Origin: Streptomyces sp. NBC_00464
GTDB lineage: Bacteria > Actinomycetota > Actinomycetes > Streptomycetales > Streptomycetaceae
Direction: 5' to 3'
Length of the DNA: 64,000 nucleotides
Assembly (NCBI RefSeq): GCF_036013915.1
Contig: NZ_CP107900.1
Coordinates: forward strand, 62,001-126,000
In this document: one piece after another, positions 16,460-32,168 of the stretch
Layout: every line of letters begins with the position of its first letter
Position numbering within the stretch: position 1 is the first letter of the stretch
Position numbers and translations under genes: made by a program
The notes under the pieces: model-generated
Told to the model about the DNA's origin: nothing
Database searches by the model: none
Seen by the model: the letters and a program-made list of their open reading frames with translations, nothing else

Positions 16460-17708
16460 CGGAACAGCCCCGCGTCGGCGGGGAGGACGCATTCATCCGG
16501 GCTCAGGTCCTCGTCGGCCTCGGAACACCCCCGCGTCGGCAGGGAGGACAGGCGCTTGAGCTCGCCCTGCATCCACGGGCGCGGAACACCCTCGCGTCGG
16601 CGGGGAGGACGCAAGTCTCGGCCTGCTCTTGAGCGCAGGGGCTGGAACGCCCCCGCGTCGGCGGGGAGGACAAGGTGGCAGGGGCGAGCAGGATGACGTC
16701 CGCCGGAACACCCCCGCGTCGGCGGAGAGGACCGGTCCCCGCTCCCCCGACCAATCCGCCGGCGCGGAACACCCCCGCGTCGGCGGAGAGGACTGCTCGG
16801 GCCGGGTGCCGAGGCGGACCGGCTCCGGAACACCCCCGCGTCGGCTGGGAGGACTTCCGCCGGTAGAACAGCCCGGTGTACGTCCCCGGAACACCCCCGC
16901 GTCGGCGGGGAGGACGGGTACGTGTCGCGGAGGTGGGCGTTGGTGCCCGGAACACCCCCGCGTCGGCGGGGAGGACGAGGGCTGCTGCGGCAGCTCACGG
17001 TCATCGGCCGGAACACCCCCGCGTCGGCGGGGAGGACGCACCGTCGTACACGTCGCGTGTGAGCTGCACCGGAACACCCCCGCGTCGGCGGGGAGGACGA
17101 GGGCAGCATGGACACCCGTACCGAGACCGACGGAACACCCCCGCGTCGGCGGGGAGGACCAGTGCCTCGGAATGCGCGGCACGGGCCCGCGCGGAACACC
17201 CCCGCGTCGGCGGGGAGGACCGCGGCCACTCACCGGCCGCGGGTCCTTGTCGCGGAACACCCCCGCGTCGGCGGGGAGGACTCCTGCTGGTCCTGCGGGG
17301 TGCCGGGGACGGGCGGAACACCCCCGCGTCGGCGGGGAGGACGGTGACGAGGTGCTCGTACGCGAACAGGGAGGCGGAACACCCCCGCGTCGGCGGGGAG
17401 GACTCGTAGCCGCTGTGCCGGAAGTGTTCCTGAGCCGGAACACCCCCGCGTCGGCGGGGAGGACAGCCTCGGCGAACCGGACCTGGTTTCCGAGGGCGGA
17501 ACACCCCCGCGTCGGCGGGGAGGACACCACGTTCGACTCCATCGCGGAGCCCGGGTACGGAACACCCCCGCGTCGGCGGGGAGGACGGGTACATCGAGCT
17601 CGGCCGCGGCATCTCCGGCGGAACACCCCCGCGTCGGCGGGGAGGACGCCCCCCTCCAAAGATCAGTTGGAGGGGGGCCCGGAACACCCCCGCGTCGGCG
17701 GGGAGGAC
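16460..17708 (-). CRISPR. Type I-E CRISPR array 1 (21 repeats, 20 spacers)
   Basis: 29-base repeats and uniform 32-base spacers give an exact 61-base period. On the minus strand the repeat begins GTCCTCCCC and ends GGGTGTTCCG around the stem core CCCCGCCGACGCGGGG. The fourteen repeats nearest cas2 (16887-17708) are identical. The seven at the far left each carry a substitution, so the leader is on the right, next to cas2, and transcription runs leftward. The newest spacer is 17648-17679. Confidence 0.98.
17648..17679 (-). other. Leader-proximal spacer that is itself a perfect hairpin
   Basis: The spacer consists of a 12-base arm GCCCCCCTCCAA, a 7-base loop and the exact complement of the arm, leaving one base over. 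It looks like an acquired intrinsic terminator. Confidence 0.9.
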
Positions 17709-17742
17709 ACTTCCTGACCTGCACCTCAGCCAGGGGTTTGCA
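17709..17742 (-). promoter_or_regulatory. Leader end of CRISPR array 1, overlapping cas2
   Basis: Reading toward the repeat on the minus strand, TGCAAA (17737-17742) and GCAGGTCAG (17714-17722) lie exactly 28 and 5 bases from the first repeat. The array 2 leader has both at the same distances. The outer element lies inside the last codons of cas2 (stop 17726-17728). Confidence 0.7.
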
Positions 17743-18055
17743 CTTCCTTTACTTGAGGTTGAGTGGGTGGGAGTCCAGTCATACGCATGAGAGTGAGGCC
17801 GTCGAAGTCCTCGGGAACGCGGCGGCGGGTACCCGCAGTACGGATCGTGTAGCCCTGTTCTGTGGGGGCGGGGTGGATCAAGACAGCGGCTCCGTCTTCG
17901 ACGACGTCGGCTACTGAGTTCCAGAGGCTGTCGCGGACGCGCGCCGAGACGCTGCCGACGAAGATTCCTGCGACGACTTCGGTAGTCCAGCGTGAGAGAG
18001 CGCCGCGGAGGTGGTCGGGGACGGCTGTGGTGGCGATGACGAGCAGGGACGGCAT
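17726..18055 (-). CDS. cas2: Cas2 (type I-E), spacer integration subunit
   Basis: 109 residues, opening MPSLLVIATTAVPDHLRGAL with the type I-E motif GIFVGSVSARVRDSLW. Cas2e dimers bridge two Cas1 dimers in the integration complex. It is the last cas gene, starting one base after the cas1 stop (TGAGATG) and ending 17 bases before array 1. Confidence 0.95.
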   Translation of the reverse strand: MPSLLVIATTAVPDHLRGALSRWTTEVVAGIFVGSVSARVRDSLWNSVADVVEDGAAVLIHPAPTEQGYTIRTAGTRRRVPEDFDGLTLMRMTGLPPTQPQVKEVQTPG

Positions 18056-18056
18056 C

Positions 18057-19049
18057 TCAGTCTCCGTCGGGTGCGTAGTTGACGCCTGCTTGCAGGGTGC
18101 CGGCTTTGGGATCCCAGAGATGGACTATGCGAACGTCCTGACTCTCGGCGCTGTCGTCGCCGTCACCGATGTCAGACGGGGGTGCGAGGAGGCTCTGGAT
18201 GTCGCGGACGATGCGTGGCAGGAGTCGCAGGAGCCTCAGTTCTTCGCGGAATGAGCGTCGGGCGTCTTGTTCGGGCTGGGGCGATTGGTGGAGGGAGAAG
18301 GCGATGGGAATGGTGGTGGTGGCTTTGTAGAGGTCGGCAACGTCATAGACGAAGGCGTGTTGCTTTCCTGTGTGGACGAAGCCGAGGGCCGGTGAGCAGC
18401 CGAGGGCGAGGATGGCTGCGTGGACGATGCCGTAGAGGCAGGTGTTGGCGGCGGATAAGGCGAGGTTGACGGGGTCTTGAGTGTCCCATTGGTCGGGGTG
18501 GTAGTTGCGTCGGAAGCGGCCGATGCCGTGTTGCTCGGCCTGGATTTTGTAGAGGGATTTCATGCGTTGTCCCTCGAGGCCGCGGAGTTGGTCGAGGGTG
18601 GCGTTGGAGGGTGCCTGGTCGGGGCTGAAGCGCAGGTCGTACATGCGGGTGGCGGTGCTGAGTCGTTGGTTGGGGTCAGCCCAGGCGGTGACTTGACGCT
18701 CCAGCCAGTGGGTGGTGAGGGAGTCGGGCAGGATCGCTGCGTAGGCGCGGACGCCTGTGCTACCGGTGCAGATGACGCTGGTGCCGTGGCGGGCGAGGGT
18801 AGCCAGGGCGCGGGTGGTGATGGATACGCCGGGTCCCAGCAGGAGGCAGGAGAGGGCGGCGGTGGGGAGGTAGACGAGGTCGGTGCGTTCGTGGTTAACG
18901 TCGATGCGGGCGCAGACGCCGGTGTCGTCCTGGACGATGCGGACCTTGTCGAGGTAGAGGAAGGAGAGGGAGTCTGCGATGCGGGGGAGCATGGCGAGCG
19001 TGGGGGCGGCCAGTCGTGTCCGGGCGTCGTTGCCGGATGGGCGGGTCAT
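18057..19049 (-). CDS. cas1: Cas1 (type I-E), spacer integrase
   Basis: 330 residues. The metal-binding catalytic residues are visible as Glu in RGLEGQRMKSLYK, His in GFVHTGKQHAFVYD and Asp in YDVADLYK. It catalyses insertion of new spacers at the leader-repeat junction. It overlaps the cas6e stop by ATGA. The C-terminal ~50 residues, with an acidic GDGDDSAE loop, are longer than the E. coli protein. Confidence 0.95.
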   Translation of the reverse strand: MTRPSGNDARTRLAAPTLAMLPRIADSLSFLYLDKVRIVQDDTGVCARIDVNHERTDLVYLPTAALSCLLLGPGVSITTRALATLARHGTSVICTGSTGVRAYAAILPDSLTTHWLERQVTAWADPNQRLSTATRMYDLRFSPDQAPSNATLDQLRGLEGQRMKSLYKIQAEQHGIGRFRRNYHPDQWDTQDPVNLALSAANTCLYGIVHAAILALGCSPALGFVHTGKQHAFVYDVADLYKATTTIPIAFSLHQSPQPEQDARRSFREELRLLRLLPRIVRDIQSLLAPPSDIGDGDDSAESQDVRIVHLWDPKAGTLQAGVNYAPDGD

Positions 19050-19699
19050 GGGGTGGGTGCGGGCGCGAGGCTGAGGAGGCCGGCGCCGTAGGACTTGCCG
19101 CGGCCGATTCCGGTGAGGACGGCGTTGGTGAGTGCGTGGGTGTCGGTGATGGTGGCGGTGCCGTCGTAGCGGATGAGGCTATGGCGCATGCCGGGTTTCG
19201 CGGTGCGGCTGCGTGCGGGGGCGATGGTGTGGGGGGTGAGCGTGTGGAGTTGCAGGCCGCTGGCGGTGGCGCGGCGTTGCCACCATTGGTCGGCGTCGGG
19301 TCCGCTGAGGGGAAGGGTGCGGCCCCGTTCGTTCTTGCGGTCCAGCGAGAGACGTTCGCGTTTGATGGGGTTGACGACGATGCGGTAGCGGACGCCCAGT
19401 CCGTCGTGGAGGGCCTGGAACATGGGGGCGAGTTCTCGAGTGTCGGCGTTTCCGTAGCCGTGGGGCAGGCCGGCGGTGTTCAGGGGGTGGGCGGCCTGGA
19501 CGAGGAGAGTGTGGCCGTCGTCGTCGGTGTCGAGGCGGTACAGGAGTCCGGTCTGCTGGCGGGCGTGGTCGCCGAGATGGTCGGGCACCATGCGCATGAG
19601 GGTCTTGTGCATCTGGTCGGCGTCGTGGATGTCGCGTTGGACGGCGCGGTGGTGGGGGTTGAGCCGGATGCGGGCGAGGACCGCAGGACTGGGGCTCAT
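19046..19699 (-). CDS. cas6e: Cas6e (CasE), pre-crRNA endonuclease
   Basis: 217 residues. The N-terminal NPHHRAVQRDIHDADQMHK contains the His expected in the active site. The C-terminal Gly-rich RNA-binding loop GIGRGKSYGAGLLSL is typical of the RAMP fold. It cuts the 3' side of the repeat stem and stays bound in Cascade. Overlaps of four bases occur at both ends of the gene. Confidence 0.95.
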   Translation of the reverse strand: MSPSPAVLARIRLNPHHRAVQRDIHDADQMHKTLMRMVPDHLGDHARQQTGLLYRLDTDDDGHTLLVQAAHPLNTAGLPHGYGNADTRELAPMFQALHDGLGVRYRIVVNPIKRERLSLDRKNERGRTLPLSGPDADQWWQRRATASGLQLHTLTPHTIAPARSRTAKPGMRHSLIRYDGTATITDTHALTNAVLTGIGRGKSYGAGLLSLAPAPTP

Positions 19700-20523
19700 G
19701 CGACGGTCTCCTGTGTGTTGAGGGCGTAGCTGATGAGCCGCTCCTGCAGGGGCGGGGTGTCCTGGTGCGAGGGCCGGTTGCCGGTGCCGGTCTGACTGGT
19801 GAGGAGCCGGGCCGGGAGGTGCTCGGTGGTGCGGTACAGCGTGCGTCGGGCGTGGGCTCGGGCGTGCGGGGTGAAACTGACGGGCTGGTCATAGGAGCTG
19901 AGCTGGATCGTCTCCTGACCGCGGTCGTGTGGTGGTGGGGTTTCCCAGTAGAACCGGACCGGCACGGTGCCGTCCTCGTGATCGGTGGGGACGCGGGTGG
20001 CGGGGTCGGGGCTGAGGGGGACGTGGTGGAGGAGCTGTGTAACCGGGTCCGTGCAGTGGGGGCGCAGCAGGAGCGGTTCGTCGGGGATGCAGGAGCGTCG
20101 TCCCAGGTAGGGGGCCCAGTGGGGGGTGGTGAGGGCTTGAGTGATGCGGTTGAGGGTGGTGTCGGGGGCCTGGACGGCGATGACGAAGACGGCGTCGGTG
20201 AGGTAGTCGCGGCGGGTGATGACTGCGGCGCCTTTGTGTTTACCGCCGCTGGTGGCGGCGGTGAGCGGATCGGGCAGTCCGCCGCCGGCGGTGTGGAAGT
20301 CGGTGAGGAGGGTGCCGGGCCGGTCGGCCCTCACGGTGAACACGACGTCGTCGTAGGGGTTGTCGGCCAGGGCGGTGGTGCGGGGGCGGCCCTCGGCGGC
20401 GGCGAACATGCCGAGCAGCCCGGAGCGGGTCGGGAAAGGGGCGGTTTCCCGGGTGGGTGTGAATGCGGAGCGTTCGCCCCAGGACTGCAGGGGGCCGGCC
20501 AGGCGCAGGAGGAGTCCGTTCAC
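19696..20523 (-). CDS. cas5: Cas5e (CasD), Cascade subunit
   Basis: 275 residues starting MNGLLLRLAGPLQSWGERSAF, the hallmark of Cas5e, followed by FPTRSGLLGMFAAAEGR. It caps the 5' handle of the crRNA in Cascade. It overlaps cas7 and cas6e by ATGA, so the three are translationally coupled. Confidence 0.95.
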   Translation of the reverse strand: MNGLLLRLAGPLQSWGERSAFTPTRETAPFPTRSGLLGMFAAAEGRPRTTALADNPYDDVVFTVRADRPGTLLTDFHTAGGGLPDPLTAATSGGKHKGAAVITRRDYLTDAVFVIAVQAPDTTLNRITQALTTPHWAPYLGRRSCIPDEPLLLRPHCTDPVTQLLHHVPLSPDPATRVPTDHEDGTVPVRFYWETPPPHDRGQETIQLSSYDQPVSFTPHARAHARRTLYRTTEHLPARLLTSQTGTGNRPSHQDTPPLQERLISYALNTQETVA

Positions 20524-21647
20524 GGCCGGCTGCCGTGGGCGGTGAGGGCGGCGTCGACGGTTGCTTCGATGAGGCCGGCGAACGAGGGATGTTCTTCGCC
20601 GATCCCTTCGAGGGTGTTACCGCTCACGGCGGCGTGTCCGTGGAAGGGGCGGTGGGCGTCTGCGGTGAGGCGGTGGATGCCGCGGGCGTAGGCGGCCAGT
20701 GCCTGGCGGGAGGGTCCGGAGAATCCTCCGGCGTTGTCGGCGCGCACCGGGGTCTCGAATGCGGCGGCCAGGGAGAGGGGGCGGTGGCGGCGAACGGCCA
20801 GGTAGGCGAGGTCGGGGACAGTGTGCGGGGCGGTGCTGTTCTTCTTGGCCTGGGGCAGTGACATGAGGAACTGTTCGGCGAATGAGGCCAGGACGGTGCG
20901 TGCGGCCTTGGCGTCGCCGTCGAGGTTGGTGATCAGATCGGTGAGGTTGACGGAGGCGAACCGGTAGAAGACGCCGGCGCCAAATTCGGCGGTGTTCAGG
21001 TGGCCGCTGCCGGTCGCGTCCGAGGGAAGCCAGTCGTCCACTGCGGTGAAGTAGTCGCGCTGGGGCTCCGCGGCGTGGGTGGTGAAGGCGTGAGCGACTT
21101 GGGCTGCGCCGTCTACGTTCGCTCCGGGCAGTTCGGCGAGCATGCGGCCCAGGAGGCTGATGGAGGCGGTGCGGCGCTTGAGGATCTCCTCGACGTGTGC
21201 GGGCGGCAACAGGGCACCCGGGTTCTTCTTCCCCAGCCCCTTTTCCAGTGCCTCGCGGTGGAGGGTGCACAGGGTGGTCAGCTCCTCGATGCCGCTCTCG
21301 GGGAGGAAGAGGAGCACGGAGGTGTGGCCGGCCTGCTCGACCTTGAGGGGCTTCTTCGCGCTGGCGGATGCGGCGACCTGGGCTCCGGCGAATGCGGCAA
21401 GGTCCTCGGGCCAGTCCTGGTCGCGGAGCTTTTCTGCGACCTTGACCGGCACCAGCCGGGTGCGGGCGGCCTTCTCCCCCAGGTCGGCCTCGACGCCGTG
21501 ACGGATCACCCGCTTCCAGGACTGGCTGGAGACCCGCAGACGCGACGCGTTGCCGTACTTGACACTCTTCGGTGAACCGAGATCGTCACGGTTCAGATTG
21601 GCAACGGGCACTGACTGCAGTGCGTGGAAATCAGCGAACACGGACAT
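20520..21647 (-). CDS. cas7: Cas7e (CasC/Cse4), Cascade backbone
   Basis: 375 residues opening with FADFHALQSVPVANLNRDDLG, then GNASRLRVSSQSWKRVIR, both typical of Cse4/CasC. Six copies form the crRNA-binding filament and kink the guide at every sixth base. There is a GGAGA site 10 bases before the ATG. A 98-base gap separates it from cse2, the only internal operon gap besides the casA-cse2 one. Confidence 0.95.
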   Translation of the reverse strand: MSVFADFHALQSVPVANLNRDDLGSPKSVKYGNASRLRVSSQSWKRVIRHGVEADLGEKAARTRLVPVKVAEKLRDQDWPEDLAAFAGAQVAASASAKKPLKVEQAGHTSVLLFLPESGIEELTTLCTLHREALEKGLGKKNPGALLPPAHVEEILKRRTASISLLGRMLAELPGANVDGAAQVAHAFTTHAAEPQRDYFTAVDDWLPSDATGSGHLNTAEFGAGVFYRFASVNLTDLITNLDGDAKAARTVLASFAEQFLMSLPQAKKNSTAPHTVPDLAYLAVRRHRPLSLAAAFETPVRADNAGGFSGPSRQALAAYARGIHRLTADAHRPFHGHAAVSGNTLEGIGEEHPSFAGLIEATVDAALTAHGSRP

Positions 21648-21745: not shown

Positions 21746-22393
21746 TCAGACGGTCTGTGCGGCGTCGTTGTCAGTGGCGGAGTCGTCGTCGTGCAGGGTG
21801 CTGAAGTAGGACTCCATCCACCGGGTGGCAATCCGGTCCCGGTCGCGGTCCCACCAGGCCAGGTTCTCCAGCAGCACCGGCCAGTCGATCTGCACACCTC
21901 CGCTTTGCAGATGGCGCAGCAGGGAGGGCAGGCGGGTATGCAGGGCCTCGCTGCTCTGGCGGGCCATCAGGTGCAGGTCGGACTCTGCGGTGTTCGGTTT
22001 CATCAGGCGCTTGTTGACCCCGTCGGCCAGGGCGGTGCCCAGGGTCGGCCGCTTCCACCATCCACGCACCGCAACGCCCGTGGCTGGTCCCGGCTCTCCT
22101 TCCTGCCGGTTGGCGGCTTCGGTGTCGCGGGCCAGGCGGGGGCGGTCGGCGATCAGCGCGGCAATGGCGTAGTAGGCCCGTTTGTCGTCGGGGTACAGGT
22201 TGTCGGGCAGTCGCCGGACCAGGTAGGCGTGTGAGCGGGGGCTGCGCTCGACGGGGCGGGCGACCGCGCTGCGCAACGCGGCACGCGCCCGGTGGTCGCG
22301 GGCGCACAGTTCCTTGATGTGGTTCACGTACTTTTCCGAGTAGCGCGGCTCGTCGTCGGTCTGTGGGGGGCCAGTTGGCCGGGTATCAGGCAT
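21746..22393 (-). CDS. cse2: Cse2 (CasB), Cascade small subunit
   Basis: 215 residues from the ATG of MPDTRPTGPPQTDDEP (the frame runs further upstream without support; CGGAG precedes this ATG). Helical, Arg-rich body with DDKRAYYAIAALIADR, GVNKRLMKPNTAESDLHLMA and LLENLAWWDRDRDRIATRW, as in Cse2. Two copies form the belly of Cascade and stabilise the R-loop. Confidence 0.9.
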   Translation of the reverse strand: MPDTRPTGPPQTDDEPRYSEKYVNHIKELCARDHRARAALRSAVARPVERSPRSHAYLVRRLPDNLYPDDKRAYYAIAALIADRPRLARDTEAANRQEGEPGPATGVAVRGWWKRPTLGTALADGVNKRLMKPNTAESDLHLMARQSSEALHTRLPSLLRHLQSGGVQIDWPVLLENLAWWDRDRDRIATRWMESYFSTLHDDDSATDNDAAQTV

Positions 22394-22490
22394 GGGGTCT
22401 CCGTCGGGGCAGGTCAATGACGTGGTGGGCGTCCCGGGCAGCCGGGCTGTTTGCCGGGTGTCACCGAGAGGGCGGAACGGGAGGGGAGGT

Positions 22491-24116
22491 TCAGGCTGCG
22501 GGGGCGGGGCGGGGCACCGCGGTCCGAATGGTCCTGCGGGCCCGGTTGCGGGCCCGGGCGACGCGCACGTCGGCGCGCATGGTGCCGATGGCATCGTCGA
22601 GGGCGTCAAGTGCCGCGTCGGCGAAGGGGCGGTGCGGGGCACTGTTCGCCCCGTCCGTGGTGAGCAGTGTCCAGAAGACCTGCTCGGCACGGGGCCAGAA
22701 CACGGCCAGGGCCCGGCTGTCCCACGGGCCGGGCTTCTTCCGGTCCAGGCGGACTTTCTCCGCCATGTCCTCGCCACCGTCGGTGGTGAGTTTCCAGGCG
22801 AGGCGGGCCGCGAATGACAGCCGGTCGCCGATCTCCTCGGCGGCCTGCCGGCAGGCCCGCACCCGCAAAGCCTGGGCGGCGTCGACGTCCTCCTGCCAGC
22901 CCAGCACCGGCGGGGTGGTGGCCTCGTACCATCCGCTGTCGCGCTGCTGGCCGTCCTGGTCGAAGCCGTAGGCCCGTACCCGCAGCATGGGGGCGATCGA
23001 GCGTGGTACGTCCTGCAGGATCAGCGGCCGTTTCGACTGCCCCGGCACATCCTTCAGGAGCAGCGCGTCCAGGTCCCGCCACAGCGCCCGCCGGCCGTTC
23101 GCGAGCCGCGGGAAGTCCGGGCCCTCACCGTTGCGCGGCCGGTCCAGGACCAGGAACGGGTCACGGACATCGGAAGCGGGTGCATGCGTGGACCACGACA
23201 CATAAGCGTCGCCGACCATCTGATGGCCTGCGGGGACCAGGAGGACGGCGTGACGGGCCCGGCCTGTCAGCAGATGCCCAGGCCACGTGGCGGGCGCGGC
23301 CGGGCCCAGGGGATCGGGAAGCGCATCGGCCTCCCACGGGCAGGCGTCGTCCTCATCCGCATCCACTCCCCCCGCACCCGGGACCGGGACGGAAAGGACG
23401 AGGGAAGTGAACAGGTCCGGTGCCCACGGATGGAAGGACACCGTCTTGCGCAACGGGCCCGCATCCCCGCTGCCCGCCCGCTCAGCGGTGATCTGTCGCG
23501 GCGTGCACTGCCCGGCGGGGCCGTAATAGAGCTGGCCGATCAGATGCCACAGCGCCTCCGCAGCCGGAACGGGAACAGGATCACCGTCATTGAAGTGCCC
23601 GAACAGAACGGCACCGTTCACACCCGTCGGACGACCGAAAACAAGCTTATTGATCCCTGACGGGTTCGGCTTGCCCTTCTTGTCCACGCACTGCTCGACC
23701 AGCCGGGGATCCTGCAGGAACGGCCGCACCGGGTCGAACACATCGAACCGTCCCGCCAGCGCCACGTCATCGAAGTACGCATCCACCGCGTCCGCGTCGA
23801 ACCGGCCGGCCTCGAGCACCTGGGCACGCAGCCGGACCCAGTCCTCCACGTCCTCGGCTACATCAACGTCATCAAGGCGGACCCCGCCATGGCTGGCGAT
23901 ACGCGCCGTGAGAGCGGCAAGAATCCGCAGGAGCCCCGAAGCGGACGGCGGTAACGGAACCTCCAGATCCACGATCTCGTGCGCCCGCCGGAACAGCTCT
24001 CTCAGCCCCAGCCGCACCGACCGCTCCCCCACCGCGCCGGCCTGCACCGGCTCACGCAGCCGCACCGGAATCCACGGCTCATCACGCACATCGAAACCCA
24101 CAAAAACCTCCCCCAT
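22491..24116 (-). CDS. casA: Cse1 (CasA/Cas8e), PAM-recognising Cascade large subunit
   Basis: 541 residues from the ATG of MGEVFVGFDVRDEPWIPVRL; an ATG two codons upstream is also possible. FDVRDEPWIPV and the LRELFRRAHEIVDLEVPLPP segment are standard Cse1 signatures, and length matches the family. It recognises the PAM and recruits Cas3. First gene of the Cascade operon, with a long (about 180-base) leader in which the promoter and the mini-CRISPR target lie. Confidence 0.93.
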   Translation of the reverse strand: MGEVFVGFDVRDEPWIPVRLREPVQAGAVGERSVRLGLRELFRRAHEIVDLEVPLPPSASGLLRILAALTARIASHGGVRLDDVDVAEDVEDWVRLRAQVLEAGRFDADAVDAYFDDVALAGRFDVFDPVRPFLQDPRLVEQCVDKKGKPNPSGINKLVFGRPTGVNGAVLFGHFNDGDPVPVPAAEALWHLIGQLYYGPAGQCTPRQITAERAGSGDAGPLRKTVSFHPWAPDLFTSLVLSVPVPGAGGVDADEDDACPWEADALPDPLGPAAPATWPGHLLTGRARHAVLLVPAGHQMVGDAYVSWSTHAPASDVRDPFLVLDRPRNGEGPDFPRLANGRRALWRDLDALLLKDVPGQSKRPLILQDVPRSIAPMLRVRAYGFDQDGQQRDSGWYEATTPPVLGWQEDVDAAQALRVRACRQAAEEIGDRLSFAARLAWKLTTDGGEDMAEKVRLDRKKPGPWDSRALAVFWPRAEQVFWTLLTTDGANSAPHRPFADAALDALDDAIGTMRADVRVARARNRARRTIRTAVPRPAPAA

Positions 24117-24274
24117 CCGCATCGAGCGCAGCCGACGGCAATGCCTCCCGGGCCACGGTTGAGGAGGCCGGGTCAACGCAGGCGCAGTCAAGCACCCGCC
24201 ACTGACAACGCGGTTGGTGTCAGGGCGTGTTGGCGACTCAAGCACATAAGGCGACCCCGTGAAGAAATATCTGG

Positions 24275-24309
24275 AAGGTTCGCCTTGGAGTGGTTTATGC
24301 ATGGTAGGA
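24275..24309 (+). promoter_or_regulatory. Predicted Cascade target (AAG PAM plus protospacer) in the casA promoter
   Basis: AAG at 24275-24277 is followed by a 32-base site. Compared with the mini-CRISPR spacer (24487-24518), positions 1-17 match except 6, 9 and 12, while only 1 of positions 18-32 matches. The site covers the TACCAT -10-like box of casA. Confidence 0.7.
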
Positions 24310-24335
24310 AGCCTTTTACGTACCGCGACCGTCAA
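24301..24335 (-). promoter_or_regulatory. Candidate casA (Cascade operon) promoter
   Basis: On the minus strand a TTGACG at 24335-24330 and TACCAT at 24306-24301 (TANNNT-type -10) are visible, but their spacing (23 bases) is longer than ideal, so only one may be used. The region is notably AT-rich for this genome. Confidence 0.4.
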
Positions 24336-24457
24336 ACACGACACGGCGACACAACAACCTCAGAAGTCGCTCACGAACCAATTACCCTGCTGGGCCACCG
24401 ATGGAGCGCGAGCAGCCATCCGGGTGTCCGGCCCGCAGCAACCCCCGACCGGGGCAG

Positions 24458-24547
24458 CGAATCCTTGCCGCCGCAGGGGTGATCCCGTTCGACTCGGGGT
24501 GGTCACGTTCACCTCTACCCCTTCCCCGCCGATGCGGGGGCGCCGGC
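24458..24547 (+). CRISPR. Degenerate mini-CRISPR (two pseudo-repeats, one spacer), CreR-like
   Basis: Pseudo-repeat 1 (24458-24486) matches the array 2 repeat at 20 of 29 positions and pseudo-repeat 2 (24519-24547) at 18 of 29, both without gaps. The spacer is exactly 32 bases (24487-24518), so the unit has the same 61-base period as the main arrays. Repeat 2 keeps the stem with loop CGAT. Repeat 1 keeps a stem with C-G changed to T-A plus one G-T wobble. It lies between cas3 and casA and has the orientation of array 2. Function as a Cascade-guiding regulatory RNA is inferred from its spacer match at 24278. Confidence 0.8.
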
Positions 24548-24556
24548 CCGACCGGC

Positions 24557-27403
24557 TCAGCGTCGCACAATGCCCAGCTCAGCATCCAGCGAAATGGCCT
24601 TCCCCAGCACCACGGCGGGACGCACCTCACCACCCACGACTGCCTGACGCAGCACGACCAGTTCACCCAGGAACGGGTGCCCGGCCCACACCTCGGGCAC
24701 CGCAAACTCCACCGCGGACGGAGAAAACCAGTCGGCGCGCACCGGCACGGTCCGCTTCATGACCGCGCGCACCGCCTCGATCGACATCCGCCCGTCACCT
24801 CCCGGACCGGGCAGCGGGACATCACCCACGAGATCCAGCGTGACACCCCCGCTCTCCTGCTCAAACACACACAGCAGACGCACCGAGTCGGCACCGAGCC
24901 GGGTCGCCGCCTGACCTTCGTCCGCGACACCGCGCTCGTGAAGCTGGTACAGACGCCGCACAGACCGCTTACGCGGAATAGCGATATTCTCGCCGACACT
25001 ACGCTGAGCGAACTCATCACCCTGCTGCGCCGTCCATGCCGCCTCCCAGCGCGGGCTTTCCCAGTCGAAGCGGTCCGCACGGTCACCATGCACCTGCTCC
25101 ACCAGCTGCTGCACCTCACCCGGAATCGCGATACGGCCCCCGTCCCGGTCCGCCAGTACCCTGGACGTCTCCAGCAGCAGGTACTCCGGGTAGACAGTGC
25201 CCCACCGGACCGGAACCGCCCCGCCGCCGGCAAGCGGATCCAGCACGATCAAGTGAGGCCCGCCCTTGCCGGCCGCCCACAACGGTCTCGGCCCCCTAGG
25301 ACGCCCCTTCACGCACCACCACGTCTCGTGACGCCAGCAGCGCCCTGCCCGCTGCAACAACAGCGCCAATGGCGCCAAGTCACTGATCACCACATCCGCG
25401 TCAAGATCCAGCGACTGCTCCACCACCTGAGTACCCACCACAATCCGCCGCACCGGACCACCCCCAGCCGGCCTGCCACCATCGCGGCCCAGCCCCCCGG
25501 TGATCGCTATGGTGCGCGCCTCCCGCACATCAGCGGGCAACCGCGCGTGCAGCAGCTCAATACCCCCGCCCTCGAGACCACGACTCCGCAAGCGGTCCCG
25601 AAGCCAGACAAAGGTGTCCTGCGCCTCGTCCACCGTGTTGCACACCACCAGCGCGCACCCCCCATCAGCACCCGTGACCAGCGGATCCACCAGTCGTTCG
25701 ATGACCGCCAGCCTCGCCCTGGCACCACCCTGCGCCGGCTCCAGGTGATTCACCGGCTCGACCGTCACGGCGAGATCCGTCGCACGCTCCCCCACCTGCA
25801 GCGCCAGATCCTCCTCACCGATCGACGCCTGCTCACCCGAGACCGCATCCACATACAGCCAGCCCGGATACGGCACCCTGAACGAACAGCGCTTCAACGC
25901 CCTCGAACTGTGCCCGGCCCCCTGCAGGTACTCCCGCACAAGCCGGTCACTGATCGACACGGGAAGCGTCGCCGACAACAGCACCACCGGCACCCCCAAC
26001 GCTCCCAGCCAGTTCAGCAAACGCCCCAGCAACACCTGCATGTACGGGTCGTACGCATGCGCCTCGTCCACAATCACCGTCTTGCCCGACAACGCCAGCA
26101 ACCGCAGCGCGTTGTGCCGCACCGGCAAAACCGACATCAGCGCCTGGTCAATCGTCCCCACCGACCACTGCGCAAGCAGCGCCCGCTTCGAACCGCGCAG
26201 CCACTGAACCGGCCCCACCCCCGGAACATGCTCCTCCGCACCGACCAGCACACCCCCATCCCCACTCGCGCCCTGATCGCTGTAGGCGGCACTCAGCCAC
26301 GCCATGCTGTGCGACAGCGTCAGCCCACCGCCCCCACCCCCCTGCCGCACCAGACTCCCCGCCACACGCCCATGCATCTGATCACTCGTCGCCATCGTCG
26401 GCAGCAGAAACGCGAACCCACGCGTCCCGCACACCCGGGCAAAAACCCGCTCCGCCTCCAGCGCCGTCTCACTTTTCCCATCCCCCGGCGCAGCCGTCAC
26501 CACAAGAATTCCGGCACGCCCCGCACCTGGCGCGGCCAGTACCCTCTCCAAGCCCGCCACCACCGAGGACTGCAGCGCATTGGGGCCTCCTTCGATCCCG
26601 TACGCCTGCCCGAACTCCTTCCGTGCCAACTCCACCGGCGCCAGCCCCGCCTGACGGGCCAGTCCCGGCGCCAGGCGGACCGACTCCGCGAAATGCTCCC
26701 TCAGCCTCATCCGCCGGCCGCGCTGGCGCCGAAGAAGGTAGTACTCCTGGCTGACCAGCCAGTCAGCCAAAACCACCACCCCCGTCACCAGAACCGCCGC
26801 AGACGCTTCGAACACCTCAGGCCCCCGCGGTCCCCCCAGCAGGCCGAACACCGACGCTCCATGGGCAACACGCTCATCCGCCCACCGCGACCCGCCGAAC
26901 AGCGCCTGATAGGCCGCCGTATCCGTCACCTCGCGCTCAAAGGCGCCGAACACACCGTGGTGCCCGCCGATAACCTCCGCCACCCGCTCCAGCGCGGACA
27001 CTCCGCCCGTCCCGTCCTCCTTGAACCCCAAAGCCGTCAACAGCACAGGCGCAACCTGCATCCCAGCCAATGCGTGCCCCACCCGCTGCACCTCGGCCTG
27101 CCCTGCATCCGCAACCAAAACCTCACTCAGCTGGCCCCGGCCGCGCGCATCGCAGAACTGAAAGCCCGACACCTTCCCGACGTCATGCAAACCCGCACAC
27201 AACGCCACCAGCAACCGAGCGCGCGTCGGATCATCAGCCGCCCCCAGCCCCGCAGCAATATGAGCCCGCTGACTCTCAGAGAGATACGCATCCCACAAGT
27301 ACCCTGCCATCGCGGCGGAATCCAGCAGATGCCGCACCAACGGATACGGCCTCTCCAGGCCCCGCGACTTCCCCCACACCGACTCATCCGGCTCGCGCAT
27401 CAT
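24557..27403 (-). CDS. cas3: Cas3 (type I-E), HD nuclease-helicase
   Basis: 948 residues from the ATG of MMREPDESVW, which has GGGGAG four bases upstream; the frame continues 13 codons further. The HD domain shows HLLDSAAMAGYLWD and LHDVGK. The helicase shows TAAPGDGKSETAL (motif I), VIVDEAHAYDPYM (DEAH, motif II) and VVEQSLDLDADVVISD followed by QRAGRCWRH (motifs V-VI). It is recruited by Cascade to degrade the target strand. It is transcribed divergently from array 2 and separated from casA by 440 bases, so it may be regulated apart from the Cascade operon. Confidence 0.95.
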   Translation of the reverse strand: MMREPDESVWGKSRGLERPYPLVRHLLDSAAMAGYLWDAYLSESQRAHIAAGLGAADDPTRARLLVALCAGLHDVGKVSGFQFCDARGRGQLSEVLVADAGQAEVQRVGHALAGMQVAPVLLTALGFKEDGTGGVSALERVAEVIGGHHGVFGAFEREVTDTAAYQALFGGSRWADERVAHGASVFGLLGGPRGPEVFEASAAVLVTGVVVLADWLVSQEYYLLRRQRGRRMRLREHFAESVRLAPGLARQAGLAPVELARKEFGQAYGIEGGPNALQSSVVAGLERVLAAPGAGRAGILVVTAAPGDGKSETALEAERVFARVCGTRGFAFLLPTMATSDQMHGRVAGSLVRQGGGGGGLTLSHSMAWLSAAYSDQGASGDGGVLVGAEEHVPGVGPVQWLRGSKRALLAQWSVGTIDQALMSVLPVRHNALRLLALSGKTVIVDEAHAYDPYMQVLLGRLLNWLGALGVPVVLLSATLPVSISDRLVREYLQGAGHSSRALKRCSFRVPYPGWLYVDAVSGEQASIGEEDLALQVGERATDLAVTVEPVNHLEPAQGGARARLAVIERLVDPLVTGADGGCALVVCNTVDEAQDTFVWLRDRLRSRGLEGGGIELLHARLPADVREARTIAITGGLGRDGGRPAGGGPVRRIVVGTQVVEQSLDLDADVVISDLAPLALLLQRAGRCWRHETWWCVKGRPRGPRPLWAAGKGGPHLIVLDPLAGGGAVPVRWGTVYPEYLLLETSRVLADRDGGRIAIPGEVQQLVEQVHGDRADRFDWESPRWEAAWTAQQGDEFAQRSVGENIAIPRKRSVRRLYQLHERGVADEGQAATRLGADSVRLLCVFEQESGGVTLDLVGDVPLPGPGGDGRMSIEAVRAVMKRTVPVRADWFSPSAVEFAVPEVWAGHPFLGELVVLRQAVVGGEVRPAVVLGKAISLDAELGIVRR

Positions 27404-27526
27404 TCCGACTCCCCTGCCTTGATACACGCGACACAACCACACCGCACGGACATGAACTCCCCCAACTCCGCGTGTAATCTGCCAACATGACCACGCCCGC
27501 CAAGATCAACTGCTGGGCAAAGAATC

Positions 27527-27560
27527 TGCAAAGGCGTCATTAAGGCGCAGGTCAGAAAGA
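27527..27560 (+). promoter_or_regulatory. Leader end of CRISPR array 2
   Basis: TGCAAA (27527-27532) and GCAGGTCAG (27547-27555) sit 28 and 5 bases before the first repeat, exactly as at array 1. The rest of 27404-27526 should hold the divergent cas3 promoter; no clear boxes are seen. Confidence 0.7.
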
Positions 27561-29761
27561 GTGCTCCCCGCCGACGCGGGGGTGATCCGCGGAGCGGGTC
27601 AGCGGGCCGACGGCAGCCGGTGTGCTCCCCGCCGACGCGGGGGTGATCCGCTGTAACCGGCCGTGCCACAAGGCGTGCCGCAGTGCTCCCCGCCGACGCG
27701 GGGGTGATCCGCTGTCCAAGCGCACGGTCCAGTACCACCTGGAGTGCTCCCCGCCGACGCGGGGGTGATCCGGAGCCCATCATGGCCGTCACCACCACTT
27801 ACGGGTGCTCCCCGCCGACGCGGGGGTGATCCGCTTGTGGAGGCCGTAGGCGAGCATGACGGGGCGTGCTCCCCGCCGACGCGGGGGTGATCCGCCACCG
27901 CCCCGGAGTCTGCAGACAAGGGACTGGTGCTCCCCGCCGACGCGGGGGTGATCCGGGCCCGCCCCGAGTGCATCCCCGAGACGGGCCGTGCTCCCCGCCG
28001 ACGCGGGGGTGATCCGGACGACTACCTCAAGAAGGTCCGGGCGCAGCAGTGCTCCCCGCCGACGCGGGGGTGATCCGGCGCCGTTGCCGGGGAGCTTGGA
28101 CAGGTCGACGTGCTCCCCGCCGACGCGGGGGTGATCCGAACGTCTCGCCGATCGCGGAGAGCGGGAGGGTGTGCTCCCCGCCGACGCGGGGGTGATCCGC
28201 CCGTCAGCTTCGGGTTCCGTCCTTGCCGGGAGTGCTCCCCGCCGACGCGGGGGTGATCCGCCCGTCAGCTTCGGGTTCCGTCCTTGCCGGGAGTGCTCCC
28301 CGCCGACGCGGGGGTGATCCGTCGTGGCGGGCGGTGAGGCTGACCAGGAACGCGTGCTCCCCGCCGACGCGGGGGTGATCCGATCCTCGGCTCGGTGGGG
28401 AGCGGCGGACTCGCGTGCTCCCCGCCGACGCGGGGGTGATCCGTACAGGTGGACGCCACCGCTGGGAGTGACCACGTGCTCCCCGCCGACGCGGGGGTGA
28501 TCCGCTCCGGCCCCGGGCGAAAAGGCCGGCGGGGGCGTGCTCCCCGCCGACGCGGGGGTGATCCGAACCCCACCGAGGCCCGCTTGACGGTGCTCCGGTG
28601 CTCCCCGCCGACGCGGGGGTGATCCGGGTCATGGAGGCGACGTCGCCCACCTGACCACGTGCTCCCCGCCGACGCGGGGGTGATCCGGGCCCGGTGGTGG
28701 AACACCGGACCCTTCGGGAGTGCTCCCCGCCGACGCGGGGGTGATCCGCCGTACACGACCCTCGCCATCGGCGTGGTGATGTGCTCCCCGCCGACGCGGG
28801 GGTGATCCGCGGTACAAGGTCACAGGGATCCCCGGGGTCCGGTGCTCCCCGCCGACGCGGGGGTGATCCGGGTCATGGAGGCGACGTCGCCCACCTGACC
28901 ACGTGCTCCCCGCCGACGCGGGGGTGATCCGGTGTACCACTTGCCCTTGTAGGTGGACAGCACGTGCTCCCCGCCGACGCGGGGGTGATCCGTCTCCCGG
29001 TGGTGGAGCAGCGGCCGGTTCGCCGTGCTCCCCGCCGACGCGGGGGTGATCCGCACTAACTCGCTGCGGTTATCCGTGGCACTTCGTGCTCCCCGCCGAC
29101 GCGGGGGTGATCCGGGGGTTGGTCGGACGGCGGTGGCGGTTGTGCCGTGCTCCCCGCCGACGCGGGGGTGATCCGAGGGCGATGCGGCGCAGCAGGCCGC
29201 TGGCGACGTGCTCCCCGCCGACGCGGGGGTGATCCGTAGCCGCCGCCGGCCGGGGACTCGGTGGTGTGGTGCTCCCCGCCGACGCGGGGGTGATCCGTCG
29301 AAGCGGGGGAGCCGGGGGAAGGCCCCGGCGTGCTCCCCGCCGACGCGGGGGTGATCCGAGACGCGGCTCGACGCCGTGACGGAGGCCGGGGTGCTCCCCG
29401 CCGACGCGGGGGTGATCCGAACAACAACGGCGACGCGGTCGCCTCGCTCGCGTGCTCCCCGCCGACGCGGGGGTGATCCGGTTGCACACGTTCTCGTGGG
29501 GCGGGTCCAGGAGTGCTCCCCGCCGACGCGGGGGTGATCCGACCTGACCCTGCGTTTGCGGGCGTGGCTCGGGGTGCTCCCCGCCGACGCGGGGGTGATC
29601 CGGGCGCTGGAGTCTTCGTCCAGTCGTTCCGCCCGTGCTCCCCGCCGACGCAGGGGTGATCCGTTGTATGCCGAGCGGGATTACTACGGGTTGGCGTGCT
29701 CCCCGCCGACGCGGGGGTGATCCGACGCTCGACCTGGAGCCGGGGTCCGAGGTCGTGTGCT
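27561..29761 (+). CRISPR. Type I-E CRISPR array 2 (36 repeats plus a terminal partial repeat)
   Basis: 29-base repeats starting GTGCTCCCC and ending GGGTGATCCG, with 32-base spacers and an exact 61-base period from 27561 to the last full repeat at 29696-29724. The 35th repeat (29635) has one G-to-A change, and a final GTGCT stub follows the 36th spacer at 29757, so the distal end is on the right and the leader on the left. Two spacers are repeated: 28200-28231 equals 28261-28292, and 28627-28658 equals 28871-28902. Repeats differ from array 1 at two positions. Confidence 0.98.
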
Positions 29762-29899
29762 GAGCTACCGCGCTTCGGCTCAGGTCATGGTCCGCAGGGT
29801 TGGCGGCGGGCCGACAGCGGGCGTCCCAGCTTCCCGCGCGCGTTCCTGTCGGGCCCGGCGTAGTGCGGCGGCCTCGGTCGCTGCGGCCTGGCAGCGGTG

Positions 29900-30499
29900 C
29901 TAGACACTGGCCTGCCCGTTCGGGGTGGGCGCATCGTCCGGAACAACCTCAGCTTCAGGGAACGCGCGGCGAGACAGCTCGCGCATCGCCCGGGTCTGCC
30001 GCTCGACAGCCTCTGTGATCCCCGGATCCAGTGTCTGAGCAGGGACAGCGGACTGGTGCGCGGCCAGCGCCTCGCGGAAGCCGGACGAGGCCATCTGACG
30101 CGTCTTCACCGGCGCCGCCGGTGCGGCCGGAGCCGTCGGAGTCACTGGAGCATGCGGCACGGTCCGTGCTGCGGCCGTGGCGCCAACGGCCAGGACCCGA
30201 ACGGCGCGTACGGCGCCGGTGCCGGCCGACTCGTTGGCCGCGGCAACAATGCGGGCGCTGATCAGCCGCAGCTGAGTGGCATAAGCCGGGGAATCGGGGC
30301 GCAACACCAACTGTCCTGTCGCCGGGTGGAAGGCGACGGCCTGGACGTGGTCGGGCAGCTGCGGCGCGATGGCGGCCGCGATGTCCGGCCAGCGGTCCAG
30401 CACGCTGCCACCAGCGGCCGGGAGTTCCGAGGCCCGGTCGGCCATCAGGCCCTGGAGCACGGCGGCGAACCCGCTCGGCTCGCGACCGTCACGCTGCAC
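29900..30499 (-). CDS. DUF721 (DciA-like) protein with disrupted N-terminus
   Basis: 199 residues from a GTG. The DUF721 core is LDRWPDIAAAIAPQLPDHVQ and GQLVLRPDSPAYATQLRLI. DciA-type DUF721 proteins help load the replicative helicase. The expected N-terminal segment lies upstream in other frames: MTETITFSEQAAVDSPELSG from 30656, then ARVALHQA, then GKAAKKRG. Two single-base losses therefore separate the natural start from the body. Either the gene is decaying, the reads have errors, or the GTG start is used. Confidence 0.65.
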   Translation of the reverse strand: MQRDGREPSGFAAVLQGLMADRASELPAAGGSVLDRWPDIAAAIAPQLPDHVQAVAFHPATGQLVLRPDSPAYATQLRLISARIVAAANESAGTGAVRAVRVLAVGATAAARTVPHAPVTPTAPAAPAAPVKTRQMASSGFREALAAHQSAVPAQTLDPGITEAVERQTRAMRELSRRAFPEAEVVPDDAPTPNGQASV

Positions 30500-30665
30500 G
30501 ACGCGCTGATGGCGGCGACGCGGGGCGCGGGTCTCGCTGTTGCCGCGCTTCTTGGCGGCCTTACCGCCTGGTGCAGCGCGACCCGGGCAGGCCGACGCCG
30601 GACAGCTCCGGGCTGTCGACGGCGGCCTGCTCGCTGAAGGTGATCGTCTCGGTCATCGGGGCCTC

Positions 30666-32168
30666 CTACCGGCGTCCGTACGTCATCAGCGAGCTGCGGG
30701 CGCCGCTCGCCAGCTGCAGAGCACGGCGCACCAGGTCGGCGCCGTACAGCTGCTCCGCGCTCTCGCGACCCATACCATCGACCGCCACGGTGATCAGCGA
30801 GGTGTCACCCAGCATCAGCCGCTCCCGGGCCTCCGCGCGGACCTGCGCCAGCTCTGCGGCCTCCAGGTCCTCCATGCCGGACACGTCCGGCATCGCTTCC
30901 TCCTGCGGTGCTGCAGGCTGGGGCTGGGGATGGAACACGGCGGTGAATACCTCGTTGACCTGGCGCCGGACGGCCTGGCTGCTCGGGGCATCCCAGTCGC
31001 CCTCGAACCGCTCGCTGCGGGCGCGGACCTGCTGAATCCGGTGACGCCGGGCAGCTTCCTGCGCACCGCGCCACTGCTCGATCGCGCCGCCACGCTTGGC
31101 GGGGGTGTCCAGAACCGTCTCAGCCCCGGCCAGCAGCACGGCGAGCAGACCAGAACCACGGCGGACCCGGCCCGTCTCCTTGCCGCGCAGGTGCAGCCAC
31201 CCACGGACATCAGCCACGGTCCATCCGGCATCAGCCACACCCCGGGCCACCCAGGCGATCCGCGGCACCGAGCAGCCGCGCAGCCAGTCCAGCTCCTGAG
31301 TGAGCTCACGAGCCAACTGGTAGCGGCGGCCGACGCGGTTGAGCTTCCGGCCGCCGGCCTTCGCCTTGGACTTCTTCGGGGCAGGGGACTTCGCTTCCCC
31401 GCTTGCGAGCTTGCTCTCAGGGGGGGAGGAAGTACCAGCCGCAGAGGAAGGCCCGGAGGAACCCACCTGCATTGGGGTGCAACGGACCTCACCCGAAACA
31501 GCAGTCACAACCGCCTTCTCAGCACCCCTCCGGGCGCCCTTCACCGGTGTCTTCGAGCGCGGCTTGCGAACCTTCCGCGACGCCTTCCTAGCCAGCTTCG
31601 CCATCAGCTCCCGGCCGGCCTCAGCGATCCCCGTCATCGAGCGCGTGTACGCAGGTGCCGCCTCGTCCCGCAGCACCGTGCGAATCCCCAGCGCGGCATC
31701 GAACTCGGCCGGGATCATCCGCGCGAACTCCGACGCCTGCGCCGACGCACCGCGCACCCTGGTCCCCCGCACGACATACGCGAGCAGCCCGGCCTCCCGC
31801 AGCATCCCCAGGTGGTACTCCACCGACCGCTCCGACAGCCCGGTCCGGCGCACCAGGTACCCGATCCCCGGACGGCACGGGAACAGCTGCGCAAGCTCCT
31901 GAGCGACCTTCACCGTCGTCACGCCGAACGAGCGAGGACCGTGCGAACGGTGCCGCCGTGGCTTGTAGAGACCGGATCCCGCGACCCAGTGGACCGCCTG
32001 CATCCACGAATAGCCCTCAAGCGCGACACGGCCCGCCGATGTCGAAAGCCACTGGCTCGCCTCCGGTACGAACAGTCCAGGCAGCACGTCGAGCGCTCCG
32101 CCGACCGGCGATCCGGACGGGCGCGGGGACGGGATCACCACGGCGGTCGGCGCAGCCACGGCGTTCAT
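30666..32168 (-). CDS. Winged-helix plasmid-type protein (putative replication or regulatory protein)
   Basis: 500 residues from the ATG of MNAVAAPTAVVIPSPRP; a longer upstream frame lacks coding character. An N-terminal winged helix is clear (IGYLVRRTGLSERSVEYHLG then LREAGLLAYVVRGTRV). A Lys-rich linker (PAPKKSKAKAGGRK) and a second helical domain (TVADVRGWLHLRG) follow. This architecture is seen in Streptomyces plasmid and AICE proteins near replication functions. It sits beside DUF721 and downstream of a palindrome cluster. Role in replication is inferred from context. Confidence 0.5.
   Translation of the reverse strand: MNAVAAPTAVVIPSPRPSGSPVGGALDVLPGLFVPEASQWLSTSAGRVALEGYSWMQAVHWVAGSGLYKPRRHRSHGPRSFGVTTVKVAQELAQLFPCRPGIGYLVRRTGLSERSVEYHLGMLREAGLLAYVVRGTRVRGASAQASEFARMIPAEFDAALGIRTVLRDEAAPAYTRSMTGIAEAGRELMAKLARKASRKVRKPRSKTPVKGARRGAEKAVVTAVSGEVRCTPMQVGSSGPSSAAGTSSPPESKLASGEAKSPAPKKSKAKAGGRKLNRVGRRYQLARELTQELDWLRGCSVPRIAWVARGVADAGWTVADVRGWLHLRGKETGRVRRGSGLLAVLLAGAETVLDTPAKRGGAIEQWRGAQEAARRHRIQQVRARSERFEGDWDAPSSQAVRRQVNEVFTAVFHPQPQPAAPQEEAMPDVSGMEDLEAAELAQVRAEARERLMLGDTSLITVAVDGMGRESAEQLYGADLVRRALQLASGARSSLMTYGRR

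Follow-up and report, generated by a model that had tools for sequence, protein, structure and literature searches.

A CreR-type mini-CRISPR unit that probably directs Cascade to the region upstream of casA in a Streptomyces type I-E system

Introduction

CreR RNAs, whose primary description reportedly appeared in Cell Host Microbe in 2023, are the closest described counterparts of the element examined here, a degenerate mini-CRISPR (clustered regularly interspaced short palindromic repeats) unit with a partly matching site upstream of casA. Both lie in a 64,000-nucleotide (nt) stretch of Streptomyces sp. NBC_00464 (contig NZ_CP107900.1, positions 62,001 to 126,000), hereafter the window. According to three reviews, CreRs autorepress the cas genes of type I-B, I-E, and V-A systems via partial complementarity to their promoters (PMC13131331, PMC12948488, PMC12737573). 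For the E. coli type I-E system, one paper reports that an AAG protospacer-adjacent motif (PAM) plus a few seed pairs suffices for Cascade binding, that mismatches over positions 19 to 32 leave binding undiminished, and that interference and priming require more than 18 bp; the flipping out of every sixth position is cited there as well (PMC5904413). A Streptomyces type I-E system is active with AAG and transcribes its cas3 apart from cse1-cas2 (PMC4762764).

An earlier note on the window, made from the letters alone, had pointed to a seed match between the mini-CRISPR spacer and a site before casA and had proposed that Cascade represses its own operon there. Following up this proposal in related genomes, we consider it highly likely that the intergenic unit is a CreR-type guide and that Cascade bound at the casA target exerts negative feedback on casA to cas2.

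Results

A single-guide unit matches an AAG-flanked site before casA

The mini-CRISPR unit (24458-24547; Table 1) has a 29-32-29 layout with degenerate repeats and lies near cas genes, as described for CreRs, in the 455-base gap that separates the stop of cas3 (24557) from the likely casA GTG start (24101). In repeat 1, all six pairs of the stem are intact (24463-24468/24473-24478, CCTTGC/GCAGGG) and the 5′ handle, GTGATCCC at 24479-24486, is one letter off the array handle. Repeat 2 has a perfect stem (24524-24529/24534-24539) and a decayed handle. Thus, the handle of repeat 1 and the 3′ hairpin of repeat 2 are kept, which is all that a single guide requires.

Guide and target match at 15 of 32 positions, 14 of these within positions 1 to 17, with mismatches at 6, 9, 12, 18-27, and 29-32. 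Complementarity is therefore confined to the PAM-proximal part, as in CreRs, with a single match among the 15 positions from 18 to 32. The earlier note had described the AAG at 24275-24277, the match over 1 to 17 except 6, 9, and 12, and the one match beyond, correctly letter for letter. Its view of position 9 as the true seed mismatch also holds, since 6 and 12 lie at free positions of the rhythm described below, while 9 mismatches in only 3 of 21 family representatives.

As a gauge of chance, the note had suggested counting AAG-flanked seed matches genome-wide. Across the 8,961,255 bases of the genome, the AAG-plus-seed pattern (any letter at 6, 9, and 12) occurs once without mismatch, at the casA site, and never with one mismatch, so that the guide has no second target at 0 or 1 mismatch in its own genome. 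Four sites carry two mismatches and 25 carry three; up to three mismatches, this makes 30 sites versus 30 for a reversed control pattern, the three-mismatch group being no larger than the control total. The mini-CRISPR itself falls into that group because it lacks the AAG. Note that the scan pattern was derived from the match itself; the following shuffle and spacer controls are independent of it. None of 3,000 dinucleotide shuffles of 24102-24450 reached 14 of the 15 pairing positions (1 to 17 without 6 and 12) at an AAG, the best reaching 11, and 1 of 1,500 did so with the PAM requirement dropped. When the 57 ordinary spacers of both arrays were placed at the AAG sites of the same stretch (627 pairs), the best reached only 9/15, and we rejected ordinary array spacers as regulators of the casA upstream stretch.

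Guide and target change together in relatives

The regions read comprised 42 loci of named genomes, 30 loci (one being the window itself) from 295 genomes of the genus, of which 38 matched, and nine plasmid regions of 44 matching records. Left out were the self copies L002 and L047, as well as L014 and L044, which have no upstream stretch; L028 was omitted from the hairpin and site tables. The motif-free scan described below covered 79 casA upstream regions, 78 from relatives plus the window. The thresholds (12/15, AAG) were chosen after the window match and then applied unchanged to the relatives, with the partial casA matches L045 and L046 scored as misses.

A repeat-motif search revealed mini-CRISPRs in 38 regions, each lying antisense to the operon; they carry 35 distinct guides (the repeated guides of L050, L051, and L052 not counted). 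For 30 of these 35, the guide's own region holds an AAG site matching at least 12/15 pairing positions. Swapping the guides between regions yielded such a site in 38 of 1,190 pairs, in all 38 of which the incoming guide was at least 13/17 identical to the resident one, and random guides taken from the same regions yielded one in 3 of 14,252 trials. Without any PAM requirement, 31 guides reached 12/15, and the best site was preceded by AAG in 29 of them.

A motif-free scan, which asked for two six-pair hairpins at CRISPR RNA (crRNA) distances together with an AAG-flanked seed match, returned 38 of the 79 regions and none of 395 regions whose letters had been shuffled within 40-base blocks. Guide and target of the best match were always antisense to the operon. 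Compared with the motif search, this set adds L029 and L030 (Sinosporangium), L038 (Acrocarpospora), L043, and L075 and lacks L008, L028, L042, L049, and L062; a looser scan also indicates L055 and L079. A class-wide sample, in which 72 of 394 genomes had casA, supplied 29 loci of another casA group through its best family matches. None of these matched, which is weak evidence of absence because the operon promoter may there lie upstream of cas3, in a region not read.

Of 37 motif-called loci, 33 have exactly one AAG site with 12/15 in the whole stretch (3.3 to 13.6 kb), always before casA and 82 to 366 nt from its start. As a separate observation, the L049 guide resembles an AAG site, ATAGAAGCAGTC, but is offset by an apparent one-base insertion (7/15), its best site (12/15) following AAC.

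Chance similarity might be suspected because the choice of pattern followed a reading of the entire window. The genome scan, the shuffles, the guide swaps, and the hairpin scan all speak against it, and we regard it as refuted by the relatives and its probability as vanishingly small.

Mismatches follow a six-base rhythm

Single linkage at 12/17 grouped the 38 matches into 21 guide families, no two of which share more than 11/17 letters and each of which matches its own promoter region. Weighted by family, mismatches occur at position 6 in 70%, at 12 in 84%, and at 18 in 76%, with the background at 74%; the remaining fifteen positions among 1 to 17 average 9%, and positions 19 to 32 (without 24 and 30) average 72%, like background. 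Positions 6, 12, and 18 had not been used in selecting the matches. Taking a single representative from each family, we counted mismatches in 33 of 42 cells at positions 6 and 12 versus 28 of 315 at the other fifteen. The nominal P of 9e-22 overstates this contrast, since the families retain some dependence on one another and the selection had itself used the fifteen positions. When families were chosen by positions 1-5, 7, and 8 only, 20 were left. Of these, 17 have a mismatch at 12 and 15 have one at 18, with only 1 to 7 mismatching at each of positions 9-11 and 13-17. Judging by these alignments, the mismatch pattern is a footprint of Cascade pairing.

Could the unit instead be a decayed leftover array, its spacer once captured from the casA promoter by mistake and the match a piece of functionless history? 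Both repeats are indeed degenerate (9 and 11 of 29 letters changed), and in some relatives the match extends slightly past position 17, as a remnant of a longer ancestral one might, with position 21 mismatching in only 50%. Decay would spare no position, however, yet the losses fall at 6, 12, 18, and beyond 18, whereas positions 1-5 and 7-8 stay across all 21 families. Moreover, the repeat-1 stems keep their pairing through paired changes, and the repeat-1 handle is kept while that of repeat 2 decays. We therefore hold a leftover array to be very unlikely.

The hairpin data behind this judgment come from 34 distinct loci. The repeat-1 stem is complete in 33 of them; in 10 loci T-A replaces C-G at pair 7-20, and in 8 loci A-T replaces G-C at pair 10-17. 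In 33 of 34, the handle of repeat 1 begins with GTG and continues with two variable letters, then C or T, then C, and finally one more variable letter. Repeat 2 keeps its stem and has lost its handle. A further hairpin just before repeat 1 was considered as a common feature and dropped; it is strong in L013, L015, L026, and L029 (z -3.1 to -4.1) but not general, with a z of -0.5 in the window.

A 17-base motif repeated in a promoter region also resembles a pair of operators for a DNA-binding protein, rather than a guide and its target. Against this, one copy always lies between Cas6-type hairpins without an AAG and the other always follows an AAG without hairpins, the letters differ totally among the 21 families and would be unreadable by one regulator, and the mismatch at every sixth base is the rhythm of Cascade. 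Paired operators thus appear extremely improbable. RNA-guided binding of Cascade before casA is, by comparison of these loci, strongly supported, because guide and target co-vary in 21 families, the AAG is fixed, the rhythm has a six-base period, and the Cas6-type hairpins are conserved.

Proposed self-regulation

From what can be read in the letters, namely guide unit, target, co-variation, PAM, rhythm, and hairpins, we infer a course of transcription, processing, binding, repression, and relief. Transcription of the unit at 24458-24547 would proceed on the plus strand, and Cas6e would cleave the transcript behind each hairpin, releasing a 61-nt crRNA-like RNA (24479-24539). Cascade carrying this RNA would bind the AAG-flanked site 24278-24309 before casA through 14 paired bases within positions 1 to 17, which should be enough for binding and too little for Cas3 cutting or priming. 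Given the E. coli limits, pairing here would stop where binding is full and attack not yet possible. Bound Cascade would then reduce casA-to-cas2 transcription and so hold free Cascade under negative feedback, until ordinary crRNAs or anti-CRISPR proteins draw Cascade off and relieve it. If cas3 is transcribed separately, as in the published Streptomyces system, Cascade and not Cas3 would be subject to the feedback. Of the autorepression claimed by the earlier note, the guided binding before casA is strongly supported by co-variation in the relatives; that its outcome is repression we propose by analogy with published CreR work as told in the reviews.

Several points weigh against this scheme. 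Folding showed the mini-CRISPR unit to be no more stable than shuffles (z -0.05), although the centroid structure shows both repeat hairpins. The motif-free scan left 41 of 79 regions without a match, and at 4 of the 37 motif-called loci (L008, L042, L049, and L062) the stretch contains no AAG site with 12/15. A promoter scan of 24090-24600 returned no promoter-like site and no consensus promoter. Finally, off-target Cascade binding in E. coli left the expression of genes within 1 kb unchanged (PMC5904413).

The last point favors an alternative in which Cascade is guided to the site without repressing casA and is either inert there or affects antisense transcription or the promoter of the guide itself. 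It would be compatible with a block in relatives that, if a -10 element, would place the target upstream of it (see below). Conversely, 33 of 37 loci have their one site always before casA, and the TAGCCT-like boxes that could drive the guide stand before repeat 1, away from the target. We judge binding without repression to be very unlikely.

The casA promoter presumably lies within the 455-base stretch. The earlier note had assigned the -10 role to a TACCAT in the protospacer; the letters are present, but neither the promoter scan nor the relatives, in which no common TANNNT box relative to the PAM was found, favor this assignment. In 14 of the 38 match regions (11 without duplicates: L010, L012, L013, L015-L017, L024, L026, and L082-L084), a block GCTCTACTGG (0-2 changes) stands 31-32 nt to the casA side of the PAM and may be the casA -10 or a regulator site. 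It is absent from the window stretch, a further point against the scheme, and as a -10 it would put the target upstream of that element, not on it. TAGCCT-like boxes close before repeat 1 in many relatives may drive the guide.

The locus and its arrays

Within the 8.96-Mb genome, the contig that carries the window measures 245,315 bases. The window contains a complete type I-E gene set on the minus strand (cas3, then casA-casB-cas7-cas5-cas6e-cas1-cas2), and the CasA relatives are mainly from Streptomyces. Cas3 scores above the cut-offs of the Cas3 core and HD models and below that of NF007248. In the plasmid system L080 (6605-8482), a winged-helix gene and a transposase separate the two annotated parts of casB. 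A scan of 22000-32000 against Rfam gave no matches.

Table 1. Coordinates of features in the window
Feature	Position	Strand	Remarks
Mini-CRISPR repeat 1	24458..24486	+	degenerate, 20/29 identical to array 1 (9 changed)
Mini-CRISPR spacer (guide), 32 nt	24487..24518	+	GTTCGACTCGGGGTGGTCACGTTCACCTCTAC
Mini-CRISPR repeat 2	24519..24547	+	18/29 identical to array 1 (11 changed)
Predicted mature crRNA-like RNA, 61 nt	24479..24539	+	inferred from Cas6e cutting after each hairpin
Target PAM AAG	24275..24277	+	
Target protospacer	24278..24309	+	GTTCGCCTTGGAGTGGTTTATGCATGGTAGGA; 173 nt (from PAM) upstream of casA start
TACCAT, proposed -10-like box	24301..24306	-	protospacer positions 24-29; promoter role not supported
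casA (cse1)	22491..24101	-	likely GTG start at 24101 behind GGGGGAGG, read from sequence
casB (cse2)	21746..22507	-	start not settled
cas7e, cas5e, cas6e, cas1e, cas2e	17726..21647	-	
cas3	24557..27442	-	stop 10 bases from mini-CRISPR repeat 2
CRISPR array 1, ordinary immunity array	27561..29724	+	handle GTGATCCG
CRISPR array 2	16460..17708	-	repeat handle GTGTTCCG

In array 1, two spacers are present twice (28200-28231 = 28261-28292 and 28627-28658 = 28871-28902), and the spacer at 27834-27865 is identical (32/32) to Streptomyces phage ZL12, where GAG precedes the protospacer. The array-2 spacer 17526-17557 nearly matches the endolysin genes of phages OnionKnight (29/32, after AAG) and Galactica (28/32, after CGC). 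With these, three phage protospacers of the two arrays had at least 28/32, a fourth match being poor (21), a number too small to deduce the PAM from.

A second type I-E system with other repeats lies on the large contig (L003; G000:C1:2553000-2572900). Its cas3 and casA frames overlap, so it has no intergenic stretch of the window kind. Spacers of its two arrays (51 repeats found) reached at best 9/15 in the stretch before cas3, where no hairpin scan was made.

Discussion

With the relatives read alongside, what began as one suggestive match becomes a conserved regulatory module, in which sequence alone identifies both guide and target. Evolution here shows what structures show in vitro, that Cascade disregards every sixth base. 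Pairing ends naturally at position 17, just below the limit of more than 18 bp given for E. coli (PMC5904413), so that these sites offer ready-made tests of regulation without self-attack, and the Streptomyces type I-E system published as active with AAG offers a setting for bench work (PMC4762764).

A more far-reaching idea, which we put forward tentatively and think somewhat doubtful, is that this is an actinomycete type I-E autoregulator private to each lineage, with 21 co-diverged seed families, so that co-resident systems would not cross-silence, and with feedback on Cascade apart from Cas3. It rests on families that share at most 11/17 letters yet keep the AAG, a pairing of about 15 positions that ends at 17, and a single casA target. 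The genome studied is itself an example of two type I-E systems meeting in one cell, which, if the idea is true, would not silence each other. Guide and target might diverge jointly either through parallel drift or through renewed capture of promoter sequence as a spacer.

Among described systems, E. coli type I-E off-target sites resemble the present one in combining AAG with seed pairing and no interference; those sites are incidental and without expression effect, whereas here guide and target have been kept together in evolution (PMC5904413). CreA RNAs (CreTA, CrePA) work on a similar principle, a crRNA-like RNA whose partial complementarity to a promoter brings Cascade there (PMC12737573), but CreA targets a toxin gene, and the target here is casA. 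We rejected a CreA-type unit with a linked toxin promoter, since the only genomic AAG-plus-seed site with 0 or 1 mismatch precedes casA.

The unit in the window is very probably a CreR-type regulator, a published kind reported for type I-E. Like CreRs, it is a degenerate mini-CRISPR near cas genes with PAM-proximal complementarity only, and no toxin gene was seen in the 455-base cas3-casA stretch. The literature search brought up no paper on such units in Streptomyces; the primary CreR paper, outside that search, may include them. The present case differs in belonging to actinomycete type I-E systems, with 21 guide families and one target that follows cas3 and precedes casA, and in a pairing that ends at 17 and leaves every sixth position free. 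What it adds to the known CreR kind is thus clade-wide co-variation of guide and target together with a six-base footprint.
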